A DNA stretch of 20,578 bases. Origin: a virus. Within the stretch, counting starts at the first letter, position 1. Each line of letters opens with the position of its first letter. Below the pieces are notes generated by a model. It was not told the DNA's origin, did not search any database, and worked only from the letters and a program-made list of their open reading frames with translations. Positions 6,094-19,901 of this stretch are shown here, in pieces. Location: positions 1 to 20,578 of IMG/VR virus record IMGVR_UViG_3300042288_001058. One strand, written 5' to 3'. The translations under genes were made by a program, and so were the position numbers.

Positions 6094-6999
6094 TTAGGCA
6101 GCGCCCGAAGAACCCCAAGCCGAGCGGAAGTTGGACACGCCGAAGCTGTATCGCTCAATCGCCTTGGCCTTCAGGTTATCGGTGTCGAAGTCCGTGTAGA
6201 CGTCCGTCTCAAGGGCTTCGCGCTCGTAGTACTTCAGCCCGTTCGGAGCGTCGGTGAGCAGGTACCATGCCTTGGTGGAGGTCAGGAACATGTTCACGCG
6301 ATGACCCTGCGGGACCGCCGAGTTGCTGTAGATCGCGTTGATGTCGTTGTTCGCCGTGTCAACGCGGAACTGCGATTGCAGCAGTCGAGTCGCCGTCCAC
6401 TGAAGGTCAGGCGGCACGATCAGCTTGGTCGGCTTGGTCATGACACGCAGGCCAGCCGCGTCTCTGAACCGCTGGATGCCGACGATGGCGTCCTGAAGCG
6501 AGGTTTCGTTCAGGTCCGACTGCGTAGAGAAGGTGTTCGCCACGGTGCCGTTGCTGATCGGGTGAGACGTCGAGAAGAACGCCTGACCGTCGCCAATCGG
6601 GAAGTTGCCCGAGAAGCCGTTGTTCAGCACGCCAGCGCCGAGGACTTCCTTGGTCTGAGCCATCGACTGCTTCAGGGCCTTGGCCTGGAGCGGGAACGAT
6701 GACTGGTACAGGTTGTCCTTGATCGCCTGACGGGTGATGATGAAACCGATGGAGGTGTAACGATTGATGTAGTTCGTCACATACTGCTGGCCCATCTCGC
6801 CGTAGGCGGTCGAAGCGCCTTCCGACTTGATCTGAGCGAGGCCGAGCAGCTTCACTTCCACTTCGATTTCCACCGCCTTGTCGGAGGTGTGCTTCTCGAA
6901 GATTTCCGACCACTGACCCGGATACATCGGGTAGTCGCCGAAGACCGCTGCCAGTCCGGGGCGGAGCAGGTCGCGGATCGCGGTGGTATTGATAGCCAT
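6094..6999 (-). CDS. Major capsid protein (Mu gpT-like, HK97 fold)
   Basis: This 301-residue protein starts MAINTTAIRDLLRPGLAAVFG, continues with YPGQWSEIFEKHTSDKAVE, and then has the block YTSIGFIITRQAIKDNLYQ, which fits the Mu gpT-like coat family. The FFSTSHPISNGTVANTFS segment (middle) and the KPTKLIVPPDLQWTATRLL segment are further landmarks of such coat proteins. The end, GLKYYEREALETDVYTDFDT, gives the beta-rich axial part. It forms the icosahedral shell. Unlike many coat genes it carries no obvious N-terminal delta/protease domain, consistent with use of the separate scaffold gene at 11079-12086. GGAG lies 8 bases before the ATG. It sits between the decoration gene and another virion gene. 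The P22-like portal with a gpT-like coat is a mixed pattern. Confidence 0.88.
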   Translation of the reverse strand: MAINTTAIRDLLRPGLAAVFGDYPMYPGQWSEIFEKHTSDKAVEIEVEVKLLGLAQIKSEGASTAYGEMGQQYVTNYINRYTSIGFIITRQAIKDNLYQSSFPLQAKALKQSMAQTKEVLGAGVLNNGFSGNFPIGDGQAFFSTSHPISNGTVANTFSTQSDLNETSLQDAIVGIQRFRDAAGLRVMTKPTKLIVPPDLQWTATRLLQSQFRVDTANNDINAIYSNSAVPQGHRVNMFLTSTKAWYLLTDAPNGLKYYEREALETDVYTDFDTDNLKAKAIERYSFGVSNFRSAWGSSGAA

Positions 7000-7023: not shown

Positions 7024-7620
7024 TTAGATGCCCAAGATGCCGCTGCGATACAGGTGGTTGTTGATCAGGACCAACCAGTTCGCGAAGCTACCGACCGCGT
7101 TATCCGGCGACGGATCGAGGTCGATGATCTTGAGGTTCAGAGTTGAGGTGTCCGCCTCACTCGCGTTGTTGATCGAGACGGCGGACTGACCCGTTGACGT
7201 GCTGCCAGCGGTGTAGAGGAAGTTCGCGTTCAGGCCGCGATCCGCCAGAGCGAGCGGGGTGCCCGCAGCGCCAGCAGCGTTGGTTTCCTGAATGGTGAAG
7301 ATGACGTTCGGGTCGTCGATGACGATGGCGTCAACGGTCGAGCCGGTCAGGACGCCGGGGTTGCCGGGCCAGAACGGGCTGAACTTCGGGACGCCGGTCG
7401 TGTCGATGTACTTGACGCCCATGAACACGCCGACGATGGGCGAACCGGCAGCGCCGCGCTCAAGATAGCCGCTGGTGCCGATGGTCACGGGGTCGTACTT
7501 GAAGATCGACGTCGCGTAGGTCGTCACGATCTGATACTTGTTTTCCGATGCGGTCCAAGCCGAACCGTCCATCTTACGAACGGGAACGAGGCCCGACGGC
7601 GCGTTCACATTGAACGACAT
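7024..7620 (-). CDS. Head decoration / capsid-associated structural protein
   Basis: This 198-residue protein is encoded immediately upstream of the coat gene. It has the order MSFNVNAPSGLVPVRKMDG, then YDPVTIGTSGYLERGA, then GSPIVGVFMGVKYIDTTG and PKFSPFWPGN. Proteins with this GVFMGVKY-D and FSPFWPG pattern are commonly encoded next to coat genes in phages, where they are annotated as structural or decoration proteins. The rest is short beta strands with an acidic VDAIVIDDPNVIFTIQE block. The likely role is binding to the outer capsid to stabilise it. The start is supported by GGAG in CTGGAGACATTCA directly before ATG. It is preceded by a 149-bp gap with a possible promoter. The decoration function is inferred from position and family resemblance. 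Confidence 0.78.
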   Translation of the reverse strand: MSFNVNAPSGLVPVRKMDGSAWTASENKYQIVTTYATSIFKYDPVTIGTSGYLERGAAGSPIVGVFMGVKYIDTTGVPKFSPFWPGNPGVLTGSTVDAIVIDDPNVIFTIQETNAAGAAGTPLALADRGLNANFLYTAGSTSTGQSAVSINNASEADTSTLNLKIIDLDPSPDNAVGSFANWLVLINNHLYRSGILGI

Positions 7621-10546: not shown

Positions 10547-10574
10547 AAAAGACCCCGACATTTCTGCCGGGGCC
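10545..10574 (-). terminator. Strong rho-independent terminator
   Basis: On the minus strand GGCCCCGGCA, loop GAAA, then TGTCGGGGTC forms a 10-bp stem with two G-U pairs, followed directly by TTTTTT (10550-10545). The GNRA-type loop and uninterrupted U-tract are textbook. It lies 21 bases after the stop of the gene ending at 10596 and closes the head-assembly transcription unit. Confidence 0.92.
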
Positions 10575-10595: not shown

Positions 10596-11075
10596 CTATT
10601 CCTTGAAGGATGCCTGACGACTGATGCTGACGCCGCTGTCGTTATCCTCGAAGCGAGGCAGGTTCGGATCAGCCTGACCCGTCCACGCCACGTCCTGAAG
10701 GGCTTCGAGGTTATCAAGGTCGCGGTCAATGCGAGCCTGCTCGACCAGTTCCTTGCGCTTCTGGCACAGCATCAGGCCACCGCGCCGGATTACCTGAGCC
10801 TCGGTGCCCTCATAGCCCGGAAGCGGAGGCGGCACCATCTCAGGATGGCGAGCCGCAGGAACTGGCTCCCAGCCGTTGATCATGCGATCCGTCATGTTAT
10901 CCGGCGTCGGCTCGTTCAGAACGGACTCGGCAACCCAAGCATATTCGTACCCGTCAGGGATACGGTTCTGCGGGACGTACAGACGCGACTGATAGTGCAT
11001 CTGCGGCGGCGCACGTTCTTCGGCGCGGCGGGTCGATGCGTCGCGCGTTTCTGCTGTTCTGGAAATGCGAGGCAT
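10596..11075 (-). CDS. Conserved phage protein next to scaffold gene
   Basis: This 159-residue protein has a basic, disordered N-terminus (RISRTAETRDASTRRAEERA), then RLYVPQNRIPDGYEYAWVAE, then MINGWEPVPAARHPEM and GTEAQVIRRGGLMLCQKRKELVEQ. The order IPDGYEYAWV - GWEPVPA-RHP - GGLML is a pattern I associate with genes next to portal, scaffold and coat genes in podovirus-like phages. It is usually annotated as hypothetical. The tight spacing (3 bases) after the scaffold gene and the terminator after it suggest a late assembly factor or minor head protein. No enzyme motif is visible. Confidence 0.7.
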   Translation of the reverse strand: MPRISRTAETRDASTRRAEERAPPQMHYQSRLYVPQNRIPDGYEYAWVAESVLNEPTPDNMTDRMINGWEPVPAARHPEMVPPPLPGYEGTEAQVIRRGGLMLCQKRKELVEQARIDRDLDNLEALQDVAWTGQADPNLPRFEDNDSGVSISRQASFKE

Positions 11076-11078
11076 CGG

Positions 11079-12086
11079 TTATCCCTTGCTCTGCTTCATA
11101 CGCTGGATTGCGTAAATCTTCTCAGCCTGTTCAGGCGATGGCCGTGAGCCGTCACCGTTCTTGATCGCGCCATTGGCGGCCAGAGAGTGAGCCAAGCGGC
11201 GCTCATCAGCCGTGAGGCGGACGACGTTTTTGTTCGGGGCCACACCGCCATTCGCAGACCGCGTGACAGGAACCGCGTTGGCATCCCGCTTCATCGGCGG
11301 GGTACGCTTCTGAGGCGGCGCATCGTCGAACGCATCGGGGAACTCCTCGCGAATGTGCCGGTCGATGTCGGCAAAATAGTCATCGTTGCCGATGTCCTTC
11401 GCCTTCCCTGCCGCTTTCAGCCGACGCTCAAGGCGCTTCGCATACAGCGTCGCTTCCTCGTACATCTCAGCATCGAAATTATCCGACGACGGCTGGAACC
11501 ATTCGTTCTGCTCGATCCACGCCACCGTGCGCGGCTCGTAGGATACCTGCTGTTCGGCGGCAGGAGCAGCAGGCTTCGGATCAGCCTTTGGTTCCGCACG
11601 GCGCTCAGGCTCCGCAGCAGGCTCAGCGCCCAGCCACGACTTCACACCACGGAGTTCGGCCTGAACATCCGTCAGCTTGGTCATGGCCTCGATCTCGGCC
11701 TCGGAGTCGCCGACCGCCTTGGCCTCCGTGAGTTGCCGCTTCAGAGACGCGACGTCCGTCTCCAACCGCTTCTCGTAGTGGAACATCATCGCCCGGTCGG
11801 ACTGCTGCCGAACGCGCTCCGCCTCTTCCGCGCGAGCCATAGCCTCGGCAGCGCGACGCTCGGCCTCTTCAGCCTTCGCCAGCGCCGACGCCACGCGGTT
11901 ATCCGCGCGCGGCTTTTTCTTCGGCTCCGGTTCCGGCTCTGGGCCAGGATCGGCAGCCGTTTCCGGCTCCTGTTCCGCATCAGGCTCCGGCGGCGTCTCG
12001 CCCTCCAGTTCCTCTTCGGTCAGTTCGATATCGACGTCTTCGACCGGGTTCTCTTCGTGCGTCGGAAGTTCGAGGGTGTCGGACAT
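11079..12086 (-). CDS. Capsid scaffolding protein
   Basis: This 335-residue protein has the classic scaffold composition. Residues 1-60 are acidic and proline-rich (VDIELTEEELEGETPPEPD, then PEPEPEPKKKPRADNR). Residues about 65-150 form a long charged coiled coil (AKAEEAERRAAEAMARAEEA, then RLETDVASLKRQLTEAK). A flexible Ala/Pro-rich part and a helical C-terminus (RLTADERRLAHSLAANGAIK, then EKIYAIQRMKQSKG) follow. In P22-type assembly the helical basic C-terminus binds coat protein and directs procapsid formation, and the scaffold then leaves. It follows the Acb2-like gene by 9 bases. It is unusual that the coat gene is not next but 4 kb further on. A general coiled-coil protein is the only alternative, and context argues against it. 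Confidence 0.85.
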   Translation of the reverse strand: MSDTLELPTHEENPVEDVDIELTEEELEGETPPEPDAEQEPETAADPGPEPEPEPKKKPRADNRVASALAKAEEAERRAAEAMARAEEAERVRQQSDRAMMFHYEKRLETDVASLKRQLTEAKAVGDSEAEIEAMTKLTDVQAELRGVKSWLGAEPAAEPERRAEPKADPKPAAPAAEQQVSYEPRTVAWIEQNEWFQPSSDNFDAEMYEEATLYAKRLERRLKAAGKAKDIGNDDYFADIDRHIREEFPDAFDDAPPQKRTPPMKRDANAVPVTRSANGGVAPNKNVVRLTADERRLAHSLAANGAIKNGDGSRPSPEQAEKIYAIQRMKQSKG

Positions 12087-12095
12087 GACCTCTCC

Positions 12096-12314
12096 TTAAA
12101 ACGTCGTCGGCTGAGCGACCGACCGCACGAGAGCCATGAAGCCCTTCTGGAGATCAGTCTTCGCGATAGCGACCCACCGACCATCCACGCCAGCCGGGAG
12201 GCTTTCACACAACTCCCGAACCTCTTCGGCCTTGGCCTTGATCGCGTTCATGGCGGCGACCTCGGCTTCCGAAAGATCGCGATAGCCCTTGATGTGCTTG
12301 TGCTGGTTATCCAT
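12096..12314 (-). CDS. acb2: Acb2-family anti-CBASS cyclic-nucleotide sponge
   Basis: This 72-residue protein reads HKHIKGYRDLSEAEVAAMN, then IKAKAEEVRELCESL, then VDGRWVAIAKTDLQKGFMAL and ends RSVAQPTTF. This H-IKGYR-L, MN-IK, RW-AI-KTDLQ-GFMALVR-VA-P layout is that of the Acb2 family (T4 Vs.4 type, Acb2/Tad1-like hairpin domain). The small all-helical proteins form hexamers that bind cyclic di- and tri-nucleotides, blocking CBASS immune signalling. Tyr11 and Lys26, which I recall as ligand-contact residues in the characterised Pseudomonas phage protein, fall at exactly these positions here. It is 3 bases after the GroES-like gene and 9 before the scaffold gene, so it would be expressed with head assembly genes. 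The family call is strong. Activity and ligand range are inferred. Confidence 0.85.
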   Translation of the reverse strand: MDNQHKHIKGYRDLSEAEVAAMNAIKAKAEEVRELCESLPAGVDGRWVAIAKTDLQKGFMALVRSVAQPTTF

Positions 12315-12317
12315 GGA

Positions 12318-12872
12318 TCAATACCTATCCGCATCTTTAGCGCCCGAGACATCCTCGGGGCCGGTGATGACAGCCATGACGCGATCATCGGGCAGCATAC
12401 CCATCGCCACGCCACGGAACGAGATCGCGGTCATCTCGTAGCGCGGCACGACGATCCAGTCGCCGACATCACACCACCGCTGACCGTTGAATTTCTCGCC
12501 CTGATAGGCGTCGGGGCCGAGACCACAGACCAGGGCCACGCAGGACGAATACTTATCCTCCGCGCGAACCACGTCCGGCAGGTACAGCGTCACCTCGGTC
12601 CCGTCGTCGCGCTTGATCGTCTTCAAGTCTTCCGGGCGCACGTAGATTTTCAGCGCCAGCATGTAACCCGCAGGCTTCATGTCGAACGGCATACCCGTCA
12701 TCTCAACGAAGTGATCGTCGATCAGAGACTTCGCAAGTTCCCGCTCATGCGGCTCGATGTTGCTCAGTCCTTGAGCAAGGTCCCGGTCAGACACCTGATC
12801 GACACGATTGCTATAGACATTGGCAGGCTCCGCGCCCGTCCACGCCGCAATACTTTCCGCCACATCGGACAT
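12318..12872 (-). CDS. GroES-fold co-chaperonin-like phage protein
   Basis: This 184-residue protein has an N-terminal helical part (residues 1-62: AESIAAWTGAEP, then EPHERELAKSLIDDHFVEM). The rest resembles chaperonin-10 fold proteins of phages: KPAGYMLALKIYVRPEDLK, then SCVALVCGLGPDAYQG, then WCDVGDWIVVPRYEM and DDRVMAVITGPEDV. The PxGYxxLxK-Y-RPE start, the GLGPDAY block and the GDW-VV-R-Y block are the landmarks. T4 gp31 is the known example in which a phage GroES analogue helps host GroEL fold the coat protein. A similar role for the coat protein here is an inference. It starts in a TGATG junction with the preceding gene. The N-terminal extension is longer than in ordinary GroES (about 97 residues). 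Confidence 0.72.
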   Translation of the reverse strand: MSDVAESIAAWTGAEPANVYSNRVDQVSDRDLAQGLSNIEPHERELAKSLIDDHFVEMTGMPFDMKPAGYMLALKIYVRPEDLKTIKRDDGTEVTLYLPDVVRAEDKYSSCVALVCGLGPDAYQGEKFNGQRWCDVGDWIVVPRYEMTAISFRGVAMGMLPDDRVMAVITGPEDVSGAKDADRY

Positions 12873-13156
12873 CAGTATAAGTCCACCCTCTTCGGTTGTT
12901 GAATCTTGTCGTCGTCGGGCTGATGCATCCGACGGTAAACTTCGTTGATCGCATTGATCGCGATTGTCAGCGCGCGAACCTGCGCGTTCGCCTCGATTGC
13001 CGAGAAGGCGATCTCCTCCGCCGTCATCGCTGGCATGAAACCGTCGCCGGTCTGGTACATCGGGCGGTAGCGCAGATTAACAGCGACCTGCATGGCAGCA
13101 TCTCGGGTCTCCGAGATCACCTCAACAGACCGTCGCCGCAGTTCGTCCGCGCTCAT
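12872..13156 (-). CDS. Hypothetical helical phage protein
   Basis: This 94-residue protein is mostly helical: ADELRRRSVEVISETRDAAM, then AEEIAFSAIEANAQVRALTI and NAINEVYRRMHQP, ending in a charged tail DDDKIQQPKRVDLY. I do not recognise a family. It is the first gene after the candidate promoter at 13183-13212 and is coupled by TGATG to the GroES-like gene, so the two may act together. The short leader has only a weak ribosome site (CGGGGC). It is accepted as real because of tight coupling, length and coherent amphipathic helices. Confidence 0.7.
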   Translation of the reverse strand: MSADELRRRSVEVISETRDAAMQVAVNLRYRPMYQTGDGFMPAMTAEEIAFSAIEANAQVRALTIAINAINEVYRRMHQPDDDKIQQPKRVDLY

Positions 13157-13182: not shown

Positions 13183-13212
13183 ACTATACGCCGAATAACT
13201 GGATGCTGTCTA
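13183..13212 (-). promoter_or_regulatory. Probable sigma70-type promoter for GroES-like / acb2 / scaffold operon
   Basis: On the minus strand TAGACA (13212-13207) is followed after 18 bases by TATAGT (13188-13183). Each hexamer matches the sigma70 consensus in five of six positions. The -35 overlaps the stop codon of the upstream gene. The expected start of transcription lies about 20 bases before the ATG at 13156. GTTATT/AATAAC forms an inverted repeat around the -10. Confidence 0.55.
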
Positions 13213-13884
13213 CACCCCAATTCCCTTATGGGGTTTCACACCCTTCATAGGGACATCGTGGCGCATCTTGCCAACGCCACCCATGGCTTTCTTCACGGGC
13301 TCGTTCTCAAGGTACTCTTTGATTTTTTTTCCCGTAAGCCGCTTTTCAAGCAACGCCCTTTTGGGCTTCACGCTCGACCCGCTCCCCATGATGTCCCGAG
13401 AATGAGCCTCAGAAACGCTCATGTGCTTGGCTCGCTCAGCGTCGTTGCGGAACGGCGGTCCGGGGACATAAAGGCCACCTTTTCTGCTACCACCGCCGTC
13501 TGCCTTCTTCACGGGCTTCGACGACTTCCGATCCTTCTCACCCGCGACGTAATCCCCGTACTCGGCGTCTTTCTTCGAGCCGTCCTTCACAGGGCCACCC
13601 ATGGCGCGCTTAATCGGGGCCTGCCCCTTGCGCGTCTTGCCAGCGCCGCCGACAGCACGCATGACCGGCGACGGCATCGCAGCGACGGCTTCGTCGAACA
13701 TACGCGCGTCACCGCCCATGGCTTTCTTCACGGGGCCGCCGACCTTATACGTCGGGATCGGGCGGCTGTTCGCCACCTTCTGCTGCGCCGTCGCGTAATT
13801 CTTCGCGGGAGGGGTCGGCTTGGCGGCGTCCATGAACGTCTTGCCAAACATCGCCGCAGCTTTACTGCGCTGTGGGTCGTTCAC
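13210..13884 (-). CDS. Basic low-complexity protein with KKAMGG-like repeats
   Basis: This 224-residue, Lys/Gly/Ala-rich protein is probably largely disordered. The heptapeptide [VI]-[KM]-[KR]-A-[MVD]-G-G recurs five times: VKKAMGG at 52, VMRAVGG at 74, IKRAMGG at 91, VKKADGG at 125 and VKKAMGG at 197. The start is the GTG at 13884, supported by GGAGG five bases upstream (TGGAGGTTCCC). It lies inside the 3' end of the portal gene (23-base overlap). Basic phage proteins with GG-VKKA-GG repeats are known to me in portal neighbourhoods, without a function. Binding to DNA or to acidic capsid surfaces is a guess from charge. An internal-head or ejection protein is another possibility. Confidence 0.7.
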   Translation of the reverse strand: MNDPQRSKAAAMFGKTFMDAAKPTPPAKNYATAQQKVANSRPIPTYKVGGPVKKAMGGDARMFDEAVAAMPSPVMRAVGGAGKTRKGQAPIKRAMGGPVKDGSKKDAEYGDYVAGEKDRKSSKPVKKADGGGSRKGGLYVPGPPFRNDAERAKHMSVSEAHSRDIMGSGSSVKPKRALLEKRLTGKKIKEYLENEPVKKAMGGVGKMRHDVPMKGVKPHKGIGV

Positions 13885-16210
13885 GGGAACCTCCAGTCAA
13901 CATAGCCTTCCGAGCCTCCGAGCGGGCTCGAATATTCGCGACCTCAAGATCGGTCTCTGCTTCGATTTCTGCAACAGTAATTTTCGTCGCCGCATCGCGC
14001 TCACTGTCGCGGTCGCGCTGCTGCAACTTCTGCGTCTCGACCACGGTGAACGGATCGGGCTGCGGCTGCTGCTTATACTGCGGACCCAACTGCTGCATCG
14101 CCTGCGCCGTCGCCATCGCGATCTGGTTCTCGACCTCGGGCGGCAGCGGCTGGCCCGGAGGCGGCAGCGGACCCGTGATCTGCTGCACCTGAACCCGCAT
14201 CTTCAGCGCGAGGTGTTCGTTGATGTGTGCCTGGAGCGCCGGATTGTTCTCCGCAATCGGCGCGTGCGACGCAATGTGCGCGTCGTGGTCCTGATACTCG
14301 CCAGCCTTCAGCGGCAGGTTCATGATCGCGTTCTGGTTCTCCGTCAGCGGGTCCAGCGGCCTCGCCTGCTGCTGCTTCTGCGGCAACAGCATCTCGATCT
14401 TCTGCGGATCGACGCCCATCTCCACGTACATCTGCTGCGTCGCCGCCCGCATATCGTGGATATCCGGCATCTGCGTCGCAAACCGCAGCAACGCCTCCGC
14501 GCGCATCATGCGCTGCGCCGACGACGAGATATTCGGGTCGGAAACCGGGATCACATCGACGTTCGACGAGAAATCCTGCCGCATGATCGCAGCCTGACCA
14601 CCGCGAACCGGGAACGGATACGGGCGATCCGGCAGATACTGACCAAACAGGTCCGCGATCATCTTCAGTTCGCGACCCAGCGACTTATGCGCTCGCTTCA
14701 GCGTCGCCGACTGCACGCGCGTCGCCGCTTCCATCAGCGCCACGGTCGTTCCAACCGGCGCATCCTGCCTGCCATCGCCCACAGCGATCTCAGCCGTGTT
14801 CGCAAGCTGCCGCGCGCCGTCTCGCGTCTCTTTCAGCAAATCCAACAGGACGACCGACGGCTCCTTATAGGGCATCGGCATGATCGCCTGCTGAATCGGC
14901 AGGCCACCCGTGTCGATCTCGCGGAATTCCGTGGGTCCGATGCCGAGGTTGTTATCCTCCAGCCGCATACCCTTGACCCGCAGGCCGCCGGGGAAGTTAT
15001 TCAGCGTGCCCGCGTCGATCAACTGGCGGTTCAGCGACGTCGCCGTCTTCGCCGTGTTGCCGAGAATGTGCGCGTATCCAAGCCCGTAGAACCCGAGGCC
15101 CGGCATGAACTTGAAATGCACCCAGCACTCGCGCTTCAGGTACGAAACGTCGCCTTCCTTCCAGTTCCGGCGGACGGCGAGCACTTTCTGCGAGGACTTA
15201 TCTATCGAAACCACATACGGCAGCGGCAGGCCGTCAGGGTGATCGAACGGCTCCGGCAGTTCGAGATCGGCATAGACCTCATAGACCTCGTATTCCTCGG
15301 TCCCTTCCGCGCCCGGACGCTGGCCGTTGACACCATCCACCTGAGACGTGATCGGGTCCTGCGACGACTGCGTATCCGGCTGTGGATCGCCCAATTCGAC
15401 GTCGCGATACGCCCCCGAAATCTGCGCCAGCCGCATCTGACGCTTCGTCAGGGGCACGATGTGGCAGAAACGCTGCGATGTCGTCAGGTCCGTCGTGCCG
15501 TAACTCACGATGAAGTTATCCGGCGTCACGAACCGTGACACGGGACGGCCCAATACCGGGTCCTGGTAGACTTTCTTGAACGTGCTACCGACCAGCGGCA
15601 GCCACATCAGCATCTGGTCGAACTCTTCGTAGTATTCCGGGGCCAGTTCCGTCAGATACAGGTTCATCCAGTCCTTAACGCGACTGGCCTGATCTTCCAG
15701 AGCGGCATTCGGAACCCCGATCACCTGCGTTTTCACAGGTCCGGCGGCAGGCATCAGTTCGCCACGCGCCACGGCCTGCCAGCGGATCACCGCCTCGGAC
15801 ATTACAGGGTCGAAAACGCCGCACGCACCCTGGAACGGCGTCGTCCGGTCCTCGATCTTCAGGCCCAGCAGTTCAATCCCGCGCTGCATCGTGGTTTCCC
15901 ACTCAGCCCGGCTGCGCTTGTCTTCCTCGACACCCGCCATGAGCGTCGTCGCGATGCCCGTCAGTTCTGATTCGTCAAGGATTTCAGCCAGATTGACGTC
16001 ATGCTCGCCCGGATCGGCGGCGTCTTCGTCCTGTGGCGAGAAATCAATGATCGAGCCGCCGTCTTCGTCCTCGGTGACGAGCGCGCCTTCGACCATCAGC
16101 CCTTCGTCGTCGGCGATTTCGATATCGACGTCACCCTCGACGTCATCCACATCCACGCCGATCTGCGGGCGCAAGGTATCCGAGAGCGTCAGGAGCGGTT
16201 TCCGAGCCAT
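13862..16210 (-). CDS. Portal protein (P22-like)
   Basis: This protein of about 782 residues, close in size to P22 gp1, forms the dodecameric vertex through which DNA enters and leaves. Residues 1-80 are very acidic (VDVDDVEGDVDIEIADDE, then IIDFSPQDEDAADPGEHD) and unusual. The portal body starts at RSRAEWETTMQRGIELLG, with the landmark TPFQGACGVFDPVMSEAVIRW. It then has EFDQMLMWLPLVGSTFKKVY, RFVTPDNFIVSYG, SLNRQLIDAGTLNNFPGGLR and ALMEAATRVQSATLKRAHKS. A Gln/Pro-rich C-terminus follows (QKQQQARPLDPLTENQNAIM). I chose the ATG at 16210 (MARKPLL). A GTG five codons upstream is possible, and neither has a good ribosome site. It follows terminase large subunit by 132 bases. Confidence 0.87.
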   Translation of the reverse strand: MARKPLLTLSDTLRPQIGVDVDDVEGDVDIEIADDEGLMVEGALVTEDEDGGSIIDFSPQDEDAADPGEHDVNLAEILDESELTGIATTLMAGVEEDKRSRAEWETTMQRGIELLGLKIEDRTTPFQGACGVFDPVMSEAVIRWQAVARGELMPAAGPVKTQVIGVPNAALEDQASRVKDWMNLYLTELAPEYYEEFDQMLMWLPLVGSTFKKVYQDPVLGRPVSRFVTPDNFIVSYGTTDLTTSQRFCHIVPLTKRQMRLAQISGAYRDVELGDPQPDTQSSQDPITSQVDGVNGQRPGAEGTEEYEVYEVYADLELPEPFDHPDGLPLPYVVSIDKSSQKVLAVRRNWKEGDVSYLKRECWVHFKFMPGLGFYGLGYAHILGNTAKTATSLNRQLIDAGTLNNFPGGLRVKGMRLEDNNLGIGPTEFREIDTGGLPIQQAIMPMPYKEPSVVLLDLLKETRDGARQLANTAEIAVGDGRQDAPVGTTVALMEAATRVQSATLKRAHKSLGRELKMIADLFGQYLPDRPYPFPVRGGQAAIMRQDFSSNVDVIPVSDPNISSSAQRMMRAEALLRFATQMPDIHDMRAATQQMYVEMGVDPQKIEMLLPQKQQQARPLDPLTENQNAIMNLPLKAGEYQDHDAHIASHAPIAENNPALQAHINEHLALKMRVQVQQITGPLPPPGQPLPPEVENQIAMATAQAMQQLGPQYKQQPQPDPFTVVETQKLQQRDRDSERDAATKITVAEIEAETDLEVANIRARSEARKAMLTGGSRERPTAQ

Positions 16211-16342
16211 GTGACTGTGTAGCACCGACGACGGCTGGCCTCAACCGGGGTTTACACACCCACCGCGCCCGATATATAACCGTCCTGCGGCTCCGGGGTG
16301 TCTCTCCTCGGCCTCCTCCTCCCTCCGCCTCGGGGCCGCTCC
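16211..16342 (-). other. Gap between terminase large subunit and portal
   Basis: On the minus strand this 132-bp gap begins with a purine-rich tract (GGCGGAGGGAGGAGGAGG) and has TTATATAT near 16275, which could be a -10 element. No convincing -35 lies upstream. A TTG-started frame runs through it into the portal gene but has no family resemblance. I see no hairpin terminator. Confidence 0.4.
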
Positions 16343-17878
16343 TCAATAAAACGCAGGCCGCTCACCCGGCGTATCATACGTCGGCACCGTCGGATCGTCC
16401 GTGTTCACGACCCAGCCGGATTGCTTAATCCGCAGGAAGACCTGCGTCATGGTGTCAACCCAGTCCCGACTATCGGCGGCTGGAAACTGCGTGCATTGCT
16501 CCATGAACGCCTCGGACCACGGCCTCAGACGATCAAATGTCGGGGGCATCGCAGGAAGCCACACCCTTCCATTCTCGATCAGGTCGGTAATCAGCCGCAC
16601 CCGTGCGATCTTGTCGCCAAATTTATCAGGGTTGAACGGCGTCGCGACCAGCCCAGCGCGAGCAAGGTCCCTGATCAGCATACCGCCAGATGCCTTCGCC
16701 TCAACAAGAACCGTATCTGGTTTGCGCCCGGCCTTTGGCTTGATGGGGACTTTGTAATTGTCATCCATGTAGTCGATAGCCATTCTCTGGGCCATCCTCC
16801 TGAGGACCGGCCACTCAGCGCGGTCTCTCCAGGCAGAGAGAAGAATTATATTCGGGATGTCGTTCTCATCGTCAAAGACACCCCACGTCGTACAGGCAGA
16901 AAACGCACTCGACTTGTTCGCGGTGAGCGCGGTGTCCCACGACTGGATGACATACTTCATCTGAGGCGGATCGGCCTGACGCCACCACTTCCACCAAGTC
17001 TTGTCGATGATCCCGCCGGATTCAATTACCGGGTTCTGCTGCCACAGAGAAGACCAGATACGAGTCGTCGTGGCGGGGTTCTTCCTGACCCTCTCAAGCT
17101 CATCTTCCGGGAACGCCTCAGGCCAAAGCGCCTCGCCCTCCTTTCGGCCAAGAGGGTCCTCCGGGCCAGCGATGGCGGGGAGAATTATGCGCCTCCACTT
17201 TTCTCCGCCACCATCTTTCTCTGCCTGATCCAAGCGCCCCATAAGGTCGGCAAGATTCCAACGAGTCCCGATCAGAATGATCGGAGTGTCCATATTCTTG
17301 CGGCGTGTAAAAAAGTCAGCAGCCCACCAAGACCACAAGTTATCTCTCTCTGAGGCAGACTCGGCGGCTTTAACGCCGGAGAGAAGATCGTCGCCAATCA
17401 GAATATCGCCACGACGGCCCGTGACATTTGCACCAACAGATGTCGCCAGATATCCACCACCGCCAAGTGTCATCCACTCGCCAGCCGCAGTCTTGTCTGT
17501 CGATATACCTATGTTCGGGAATAGCCTTTGGTGCTCATCTGATTTTATGGTGTTCCTGACTTTCAGGCCAAAGCTGTCTGACAACTCCTGCTTGTGAGTT
17601 GCGAAGATCAGGGTTTTTTCTGGAAACTTACTCAGGTAGTAGGCCGGAAAGAAATGACTGGCACACCAGGACTTACCGTGTCCGGGTGGCATAGAGATCA
17701 TGAGCCTCTTTGTTTTTCCGCTCGCGACCAAATCAAGTTCTTTGCAGACAAGCTGCAAGTGCTCCGGCGGAACTAGACCAGAAACGTAGCCGATGTACTT
17801 CGCCAACGAATTAATGGCCTCTTCTCTGGCCAGAAGCTCCTGTAGGAGTTCATCGTATTTTATCTTGTCAGCACTCAT
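16343..17878 (-). CDS. terL: Terminase large subunit
   Basis: This 511-residue protein is the packaging motor that pumps DNA into the procapsid and cuts the concatemer. The N-terminal ATPase has a Walker A, MPPGHGKS, near residues 63-70, a motif LIFATHKQELS near 90, and a Walker B, DILIGDD, near 158-164. The coupling motif ILIGTRW is near 202. The C-terminal RNase H-like nuclease shows SWDTAL near 313, VLVEAKASG near 391 and DWVDTMTQ near 473, supplying the expected acidic residues. Length and motif order are normal. Its ATG overlaps the stop of the HNH gene (ATGA). Its first half looks less GC-rich than the terminase small subunit region, hinting at a mosaic joint between the two subunits. 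Confidence 0.95.
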   Translation of the reverse strand: MSADKIKYDELLQELLAREEAINSLAKYIGYVSGLVPPEHLQLVCKELDLVASGKTKRLMISMPPGHGKSWCASHFFPAYYLSKFPEKTLIFATHKQELSDSFGLKVRNTIKSDEHQRLFPNIGISTDKTAAGEWMTLGGGGYLATSVGANVTGRRGDILIGDDLLSGVKAAESASERDNLWSWWAADFFTRRKNMDTPIILIGTRWNLADLMGRLDQAEKDGGGEKWRRIILPAIAGPEDPLGRKEGEALWPEAFPEDELERVRKNPATTTRIWSSLWQQNPVIESGGIIDKTWWKWWRQADPPQMKYVIQSWDTALTANKSSAFSACTTWGVFDDENDIPNIILLSAWRDRAEWPVLRRMAQRMAIDYMDDNYKVPIKPKAGRKPDTVLVEAKASGGMLIRDLARAGLVATPFNPDKFGDKIARVRLITDLIENGRVWLPAMPPTFDRLRPWSEAFMEQCTQFPAADSRDWVDTMTQVFLRIKQSGWVVNTDDPTVPTYDTPGERPAFY

Positions 17879-18411
17879 GGTGATCTAGAGAACTCACCGA
17901 AAAGCACAGACGCCGTTTCCGCATACGCGGCTGACGCCTGATCAATCGTGTCGAAATACCCTATGTGAATATCCCGACCGTCCTTTCTGATTCTTGCCGC
18001 CCATCTGCGCCCTATCTTGCGAACGCCCTTGGCCCCAGACGGATTGTCCGCCCGGAGCCTCTTGTTCGCCTCATTTAGGGATCGCGTGGCGACCCTCAGG
18101 TTCTTGATGGAGTTATCTGAGGGGTCCGTAGAGATGTGGTCAATCTCCTCTTCCGGCCACTCACCGTGACACATGGCCCAGATGACGCGGTGCTGGAGAT
18201 AGCCACGGCCAAAAATCCTCACGGTCCAGTAGCCGTCGTGTCTTTGGTGGCCTGCGTCGCTTCCAGCATAGCGCGTGTTCCACGATTTCGCCGCTCTAGA
18301 GTCTGGGAACATTTCAAGCGGCCTGGGTCGCCAGAACAACTTGCCTGCAAGCGCATCGCACTCCAGCAGTTGTCTTAGGGTATCGACGGAGATATCGTCT
18401 CTGGGCGTCAT
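17875..18411 (-). CDS. HNH endonuclease with AP2 DNA-binding domain
   Basis: The 178-residue protein starts at the ATG at 18411, supported by AAGGAAAG about 7 bases upstream. A longer frame to 18459 exists but lacks such a site. Residues about 50-115 form an HNH_3-type nuclease: HDGYWTVRIFGRGYLQHRVI, then IDHISTDPSDNSIKNLRVAT. Here His of HRV, His of DH and Asn of DNSIKNL are the expected metal/catalytic set. Residues about 122-175 are an AP2-type domain: GAKGVRKIGRRWAARIRKDG, then IHIGYFDTIDQASAAYAETA. This HNH+AP2 pair is typical of free-standing homing endonucleases in phages. Position next to terL also recalls the HNH proteins that assist terminase in HK97-type phages, but those lack AP2. 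I favour homing. Confidence 0.88.
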   Translation of the reverse strand: MTPRDDISVDTLRQLLECDALAGKLFWRPRPLEMFPDSRAAKSWNTRYAGSDAGHQRHDGYWTVRIFGRGYLQHRVIWAMCHGEWPEEEIDHISTDPSDNSIKNLRVATRSLNEANKRLRADNPSGAKGVRKIGRRWAARIRKDGRDIHIGYFDTIDQASAAYAETASVLFGEFSRSP

Positions 18412-18495
18412 CTGGCACTTTCCTTGCCTGAGGATGAAGTCCGCCGACGACAGCAGCAACTGTCTCGGCGGGCGATCCTCGCAGGATATACCAAC

Positions 18496-19163: not shown

Positions 19164-19384
19164 CACAACCCCTCCCAGCATCCACACACCGCGCAATCGC
19201 GCTCGACATCCACCAACCCGCCCCACGCACGCCATACCGGCGGCGGAACCGCACCCACCGGCTTCCACGAACACATCGGCAGCACCGTCGGCTCCTCGGC
19301 GTCACCGATCACCGTCCACGCCTGCTCGTTCAGATAGCCGTGACGGCACTGTGAGTGCCGGGCCTCACCATCCCCCTCACTCAT
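19163..19384 (-). CDS. Small Cys-rich protein, possible metal binder
   Basis: This 73-residue protein has cysteines at 13, 38, 64, 67 and 69 and histidines at 10 and 15. They are arranged as HSQCRHG near the start, MCSW in the middle and DCAVCGCW at the end. This could make a small zinc site, but the spacing does not match a family I can name. A tryptophan/proline-rich middle (KPVGAVPPPVWRAWGG) is notable. The start at 19384 overlaps the terminase small subunit gene by 8 bases, and the stop is in a TGATG junction with the membrane microprotein. It is accepted as a gene from coupling and cysteine pattern. The function is unknown. Confidence 0.62.
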   Translation of the reverse strand: MSEGDGEARHSQCRHGYLNEQAWTVIGDAEEPTVLPMCSWKPVGAVPPPVWRAWGGLVDVERDCAVCGCWEGL

Positions 19385-19901
19385 CCCTCATATCCTCCAG
19401 CACCTCATACTCCGCGTCCACAACCCGCTCCCGCCCCTGCGCCACCAGCCGCCGCAACTCATCCAGCGGCAACTCCTGCGCCGTCATCCGAACATTCACA
19501 TTCACCGTCTGATCCATGAACCCCAGCAGCTTAGCCTGCGTATTCACCGCCGTAATCGCCGGGCCATACGCCCCCGCCTCCAGCGCCTTCTCATGAACCA
19601 TCTGTAACTCGTGCAACATCACTTCCCGCGTGTACTCCCCCACACGACGCTGCTTCCCAAACCCCGCCTTCCGATAGGCCCGGATGGCCGCCTGTATCTC
19701 AGGCCGCTCCAGCGTCCTCTGCGCCGTCACATCCATCGGATAACGCGGATCGCGAAACCCCGCCTTGCTACACGCCAGAAACGCATTCCCTGACCGGACG
19801 TATTCCTCGACGAACACAGCCTCCGGCGTCATCCGGTCATCCGCCTGGACACCCCAGATCGCTTCCGCGTCTTCGCCCGTGACGTCGGTCTCCACCGTCA
19901 C
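19377..19901 (-). CDS. terS: Terminase small subunit
   Basis: This 174-residue protein has the usual small-terminase layout. A helix-turn-helix-like N-terminal part reads TPEAVFVEEYVRSGNAFLAC then SKAGFRDP, with TLERPEIQAAIRAYRK after it. A central helical hairpin follows (YTREVMLHELQMVHEKALEA, then AITAVNTQAKLLGFMDQ). A C-terminal tail (DELRRLVAQGRERVVDAEYE) would contact the large subunit. The protein recognises the packaging site on the genome and stimulates the large subunit. The GTG start at 19901 overlaps the upstream stop (GTGA). An ATG at codon 24 is a weaker alternative. It is separated from terL by about 1.5 kb holding small genes and an HNH endonuclease. Confidence 0.85.
   Translation of the reverse strand: MTVETDVTGEDAEAIWGVQADDRMTPEAVFVEEYVRSGNAFLACSKAGFRDPRYPMDVTAQRTLERPEIQAAIRAYRKAGFGKQRRVGEYTREVMLHELQMVHEKALEAGAYGPAITAVNTQAKLLGFMDQTVNVNVRMTAQELPLDELRRLVAQGRERVVDAEYEVLEDMRDE

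Follow-up and report, generated by a model that had tools for sequence, protein, structure and literature searches.

The locus described here raises the question of why a gene for a putative cyclic-nucleotide sponge of the Acb2 family should lie among the genes that build a phage head, and whether that position means anything. The window, which is the whole stretch of DNA analysed, is a complete IMG/VR virus record (IMGVR_UViG_3300042288_001058; 20,578 bases). The record is metagenomic and is probably itself a fragment. We used profile searches, structure prediction and comparisons among related viral contigs to address the identity of the protein, the origin of the gene in its present place, and the use of the same place in other phages.

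Genomic context of acb2

The acb2 reading frame is real and runs from position 12314 down to 12096, encoding 72 amino acids (MDNQHKHIKGYRDLSEAEVAAMNAIKAKAEEVRELCESLPAGVDGRWVAIAKTDLQKGFMALVRSVAQPTTF); its strand, which an earlier note on this DNA had not given, is minus. The three motifs that had been picked out in the protein (IKGYR, MNAIK, and KTDLQKGFMALVR) are all present in the translation, and Tyr11 and Lys26 are at the positions named. The reported spacing also proved exact. Three bases (12315-12317) separate acb2 from the stop codon of the GroES-like (Cpn10) gene directly upstream (12318-12872, minus strand), and nine (12087-12095) lie between its end and the start of the 335-aa ORF directly downstream (11079-12086, minus strand). 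The upstream gene matches phrog_3188 (co-chaperonin GroES, E 1.9e-5), and its homologue in contig L213 (6607-7065) scores above the Pfam cut-off for Cpn10. The downstream ORF is a probable head scaffolding protein: it matches phrog_28737 (E 2.7e-15), its homologues in L213 and L220 match the head scaffolding family phrog_8865, and it sits between the portal and major head protein genes.

These genes belong to a late module that runs in one direction along the minus strand. In order, it comprises a probable terminase small subunit (19377-19901; phrog_51, E 1.1e-5), the terminase large subunit (TerL; 16343-17878; phrog_38, E 6.7e-93; Pfam Terminase_6C and 6N), the portal protein (13862-16225; phrog_1216, E 3.6e-32), a repeat-rich ORF of 224 aa, a small conserved head-operon gene of 94 aa that shares one base with the GroES-like gene (12872-13156; ORF and synteny), the GroES-like gene, acb2, the scaffold gene, a conserved 159-aa gene (10596-11075; synteny and the insert in L211 described below), and, at some distance, the major head protein (6094-6999; phrog_371, E 2e-20). 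The ORF map and the PHROG matches of the neighbours thus confirm that acb2 lies inside a head-assembly operon. A terminator-like stem-loop with a T run, found by consensus scan only, stands just after the 159-aa gene on the same strand (10551-10574).

The 224-aa ORF after the portal gene (13210-13884) carries repeated KAMGG-type motifs. Relatives differ widely in its length (about 170-510 aa), and blast comparison with contigs L082 and L083 suggests duplication or recombination at this ORF. An HNH endonuclease gene with a weak AP2-like match (17875-18459) has a 4-base overlap with the TerL start; in other relatives, the space from the 159-aa gene to the next head gene holds HNH genes encoded on the other strand. 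A GroEL-like gene (L140:10487-12127) was found between these same two genes in L140, which also has a GroES-like gene.

Family assignment and predicted structure

The encoded protein is a true, ordinary member of the Acb2 family. Pfam PF24729 (Acb2_Tad1_hairpin) matches it at 72.2 bits (E 3.9e-20; curated cut-off, 27 bits), among solved sequences Acb2 8h2j, of the PaMx33/PaP2 type, comes nearest (phmmer E 6.9e-18), and 233 phage records match the protein at E <= 1e-3. Residues M22, R46, T53, Q56, and M60 are invariant in 35 aligned relatives, R46 corresponding to R67 of solved Acb2 by counting in the phmmer alignment. Y11 and K26, which we take to be ligand contacts in Acb2, are at least 90% conserved in the same set and occupy the same positions in solved Acb2. 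The short form is normal for the family, since 74 residues is the commonest length among related viral contigs. Searches of PADLOC and NCBIfam returned no match to the 72-aa protein, and because Pfam, PHROGs, and PDB all match, we regard this silence as a gap in those libraries. The Pfam search gave no PF11195 (Tad2) match for the protein. The label Tad1, defined by an N-terminal antiparallel beta-sheet followed by a helical hairpin (PMC12043709), was excluded: the N-terminal sheet is absent, the model consists of two helices only, and 72 aa leave no room for the sheet.

An AlphaFold model from the sequence alone reached a pLDDT of only 69.5; the AlphaFold2 model used here was built from 32 sequences (pLDDT 86.7). 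This model has two long antiparallel helices (residues 16-37 and 45-67); residues 1-10 are of low confidence, and the short N-terminal helix is not predicted. The earlier note had proposed comparing a predicted structure with known Acb2, and our single-chain model matches Acb2 and T4 Vs.4 best: the top Foldseek matches are Acb2 8h2x and 8h2j, apo and cGAMP-bound (E 1e-4, TM about 0.75), followed by T4 Vs.4. VIA-align gave Z values of 7.5 and 7.4 over 67 residues, which unrelated helical hairpins reach too. Because such values alone would not separate the protein from other helical hairpins, its identity as Acb2 rests on sequence. Taken together, the sequence profile, the closest solved sequence, the fold, and the two named residues bear out the proposed family membership.

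acb2 is an accessory insert

Comparison with close relatives identifies acb2 as an accessory insert between the GroES-like and scaffold genes. Contig L083, whose GroES-like and scaffold proteins are 97 and 95% identical to those of the window, has no acb2, and only TT stands between its GroES stop codon and its scaffold ATG. Contig L082 matches the window upstream at 99.9% identity across 4.9 kb, and its GroES-like gene leads straight to a scaffold-like start, again with no acb2. Where these relatives (95-99% protein identity to the window) join GroES to scaffold directly, the window instead has 230 bases (12087-12316, minus strand; alignment of the window with L083 and L082), reading CC-ATG...TAA-GGAGAGGTC and ending exactly at the scaffold ATG. 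The insert is a start-codon-to-start-codon unit that consists of acb2 and the present ribosome site of the scaffold gene, a Shine-Dalgarno-like GGAGAGG. In other words, the upstream ribosome site, which in L083 would belong to the scaffold gene, goes to acb2, and the scaffold gene receives a new, stronger-looking one. The end of the L082 contig (6296-6371) is an inverted repeat that resembles an assembly artefact and falls exactly at the GroES-scaffold junction; the junction itself lies before this repeat.

A megablast search of the phage collection found no near DNA relative of the window. The nearest named phages of its major head protein (42-49% identity) include Pelagibacter phages HTVC027P and HTVC023P, Planktothrix phage Pag-Yong1, Phage DSL-LC04, and a Manatee Spring contig. 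In three of these (HTVC027P, DSL-LC04, and the Manatee Spring contig), the gene at the scaffold position comes immediately after a GroES-like gene, so that the adjacency of the two genes is old. The only cellular-genome matches of the head protein (90-91%) were to two contigs of one Actinomycetota MAG (L321, JAFMIT010000025.1; L322, JAFMIT010000166.1), which are probably binned phage; they are a weak lead that does not suffice to name a host.

The GroES-scaffold junction in related phages

We collected 63 distinct other GroES-scaffold junctions of the close lineage from loci that had been fetched by their head genes, not by sponges. The usual gap between the two genes is about 10 bases, and inserts were found in three junctions (L102, L213, and L270). 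The slot of L102 (the same contig as L220, L229, L343, and L386) holds Tad2 (85 bits). In L213, Tad2 (96 bits) comes first and then a PF24729 hairpin of another type (33.9 bits), and L270 has a 57-aa ORF of no known kind (L270:3290-3463). Apparent inserts in L160 and L288 turned out to be split or misjudged reading frames, and that in L145 a gap with no ORF. One junction downstream, between the scaffold and 159-aa genes, L211 carries a PF24729 hairpin (39 bits). A search of 50 whole lineage records (1.07 Mb) with PF11195 and PF24729 identified four genes only, the Tad2 genes of L102 and L213 and the Acb2-type genes of L213 and L211, and all four fall in the same interval.

Somewhat tentatively, we suggest that a widespread group of aquatic phages has a dedicated exchange slot for sponges in its head operon, which would take Acb2, Tad2, or both in tandem around the scaffold gene and by which the antidote would be made together with its trigger, an arrangement that would recur in unrelated phages, where sponges lie next to terminase, portal, or scaffold genes. 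The slot is not exclusive to sponges, however, as the ORF of L270 and a 152-aa ORF in the GroES-scaffold gap of the distant L275 (5747-6205) are both of unknown kind; each is a candidate counter-defence gene. Tandem pairs of Tad2 and an Acb2-type hairpin occur in many viral contigs (L213:7077-7349 and 7342-7581; L393-L396, L401, L406, L412, L416, L417, and L445; L323, which is phage PB119), suggesting a portable two-sponge cassette.

The unknown ORFs are also what one would expect if the gene were a sponge and its place merely a permissive gene boundary, open to any small gene, with the link to head triggers a coincidence. The same can be said of the very varied contexts of Acb2 genes elsewhere and of the number of independent slot events in the close lineage, which is only four. 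We nevertheless lean against a permissive boundary, a reading that remains a serious one, given that every Tad2 or Acb2 gene in 1.07 Mb of lineage sequence falls in this interval. The naive odds that three records would all have their inserts within an interval of roughly 1.15 kb are about 1 in 10,000, and about 1 in 100,000 for four events including the window, both figures being rough and post hoc, as they were computed after the pattern was noticed. The repetition of the pattern in distant lineages likewise argues against coincidence. Contig L039, whose portal and head proteins show 24 and 32% identity, has the order portal, Acb2, 91-aa ORF, GroES-like, two small ORFs, Tad2, scaffold position and, later, head protein, and the distant L414 and L462 have GroES-like, Tad2, scaffold. 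Related placements include Tad2 between TerL and portal (L387 and L388), a Tad2-Acb2-type pair upstream of the portal gene (L445), and the orders portal-Acb2-(402 aa)-major head in Vibrio phage D53 and TerL-Acb2-x-portal in Marinobacter phage PS6.

We rejected the broader statement that Acb2 genes always lie in head operons, because neighbour tallies for 69 groups of Acb2 loci showed varied contexts. Among 18 named records, hand-picked so that the proportion is not a rate, the Acb2-family gene lies in or beside packaging, head, or tail genes in 12 and in replication or early regions in five (PaMx41, B8b, MQM1, EcP1, and Ac42), with no clear context in the last (CHOED). Since acb2 also occurs in replication or early operons (PaMx41, Ac42, MQM1, and B8b), late expression is not required for Acb2 function.

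Timing of expression and proposed role

The earlier note had found the late position odd for a sponge, and had suggested virion entry or a second promoter as ways round it. The oddity did not hold up: in many unrelated named phages, Acb2 homologues belong to the packaging, head, or tail module, and two targeted defences are published as sensing head proteins. Head proteins are reported to be sensed by Thoeris (PMC11312562), a prohead protease engages a CBASS sensor (PMC12409349), and capsid mutants help phages lacking acb2 to escape CBASS (PMC10419184). A sponge made with the head proteins would thus be on time, so that the timing puzzle largely dissolves, and late expression of acb2 looks adaptive. 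A review also states that Acb2 acts on induction and not in the lysogenic state (PMC12043709). A second promoter has no support here, as a promoter scan, in which overall counts were near chance level, showed no site from the start of the GroES-like gene to acb2; for virion entry, our data offer no support either way.

Our preferred explanation, which we consider probable, is that acb2 encodes an Acb2-type sponge, that it is an accessory insert, and that the slot is kept for sponges with late head-operon expression. The protein would form a hexamer that sequesters the cyclic di- and trinucleotides that CBASS produces, so that the effectors stay off. The inserted unit uses the upstream Shine-Dalgarno-like sequence and supplies a new one to the scaffold gene. 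By this means the slot would place sponges under late head-operon expression, just when capsid and prohead proteins would trigger CBASS and Thoeris. A second reason for keeping the slot may be that the operon stays intact when a short in-frame unit is added at this point. Carrying the gene may also have a cost, as the Panoptes defence is set off by Acb2 (PMC12657218), which is a possible reason for the patchy presence of acb2.

A sponge whose main target is Thoeris, type III CRISPR, or some other cyclic-nucleotide system in place of CBASS would fit the pairing of Acb2-type genes with Tad2 in relatives, as well as the reported binding by Acb2 of cA3, which is common to type III CRISPR (PMC12043709). 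We think this improbable, because the Acb2 that was tested against CBASS is a close sequence relative (50% over the aligned part) and the N-terminal beta-sheet of Tad1 is absent. Still more doubtful is a reading in which the Acb2 hairpin fold belongs to a head-assembly accessory, for example an internal protein or one that helps the scaffold, and a structural role accounts for where the gene lies. Its position between the GroES-like and scaffold genes would suit that role, and short helical hairpins are common folds that give many middling structure matches, but near-identical phages do without the gene, the same slot holds Tad2 from an unrelated family known as a sponge, Acb2 homologues also occur in replication operons, and the presumed ligand-site residues are conserved. 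An assembly chimera that joined acb2 from another genome, which the absence of acb2 from the closest relatives and the artefact at this very place in L082 might suggest, is scarcely credible for an insert that is bounded precisely by start codons, disrupts no reading frame or ribosome site, and matches its neighbours in GC content (0.589) and GC3 (0.74).

The novelty of these results lies in the slot, adjacent to the scaffold gene, at which sponges recur, the protein being ordinary for its family; we found no report of such a slot in the literature searched. Acb2 and Tad2, two unrelated sponge families, both turn up in this one gap. If the slot is real, it explains how a counter-defence gene can be late, it makes small ORFs between portal and scaffold genes candidate sponges, starting with those of L270 and L275, and it offers a direct test of whether counter-defence genes match the moment at which their defence is triggered.

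Comparison with known sponges

A close known relative is Acb2 of Pseudomonas phages PaMx33, PaMx41, and PaP2 (p26; PDB 8h2j, 8h2x, and 8ixz), which shares 50% identity with the window protein over the aligned part and has the same helical hairpin. Common to both are the MDNQHK-IKGYRDLS start, the KTD-Q-G-MA--R--AQP--F end, and the aligned Y11 and K26. The PaMx-type proteins are longer (93-94 aa versus 72), with the window protein having about 21 residues fewer at the hairpin turn, and acb2 of PaMx41 closes a replication operon, whereas that of the window lies in a head operon. Homologues of 72-74 aa are found in Acinetobacter phage Ac42, jumbo Erwinia and Serratia phages, and IMG/VR contigs. 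These are about 60-78% identical to the window protein and of the same length, lacking the longer turn; we found no report of an assay on any of them. Unlike the window gene, the Ac42 copy lies between topoisomerase and RNA-ligase genes. T4 Vs.4, the Acb2 of T4 (PDB 7uq2), has the same fold (Z 7.5) and the IKGY motif in common with the window protein, but the sequence similarity is marginal (E 0.18); it is reported to bind 3'3'-cGAMP (PMC11722364).

Tad2 (PF11195), a sponge for Thoeris and cyclic-dinucleotide signals, reportedly sequesters both gcADPR and cyclic dinucleotides (PMC12043709). It is unrelated to Acb2 in fold and family and is absent from the window, yet it fills the same GroES-scaffold slot in L213, L102, L414, and L462. 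Comparable arrangements occur in two phages of different lineages, both of whose sponge genes carry only a hypothetical-protein annotation. Xanthomonas phage PB119 has the order Tad2-Acb2-TerS-TerL, and in Thiohalocapsa phage LS06-2018-MD04 an Acb2-family gene lies 15 bases before the scaffold gene.
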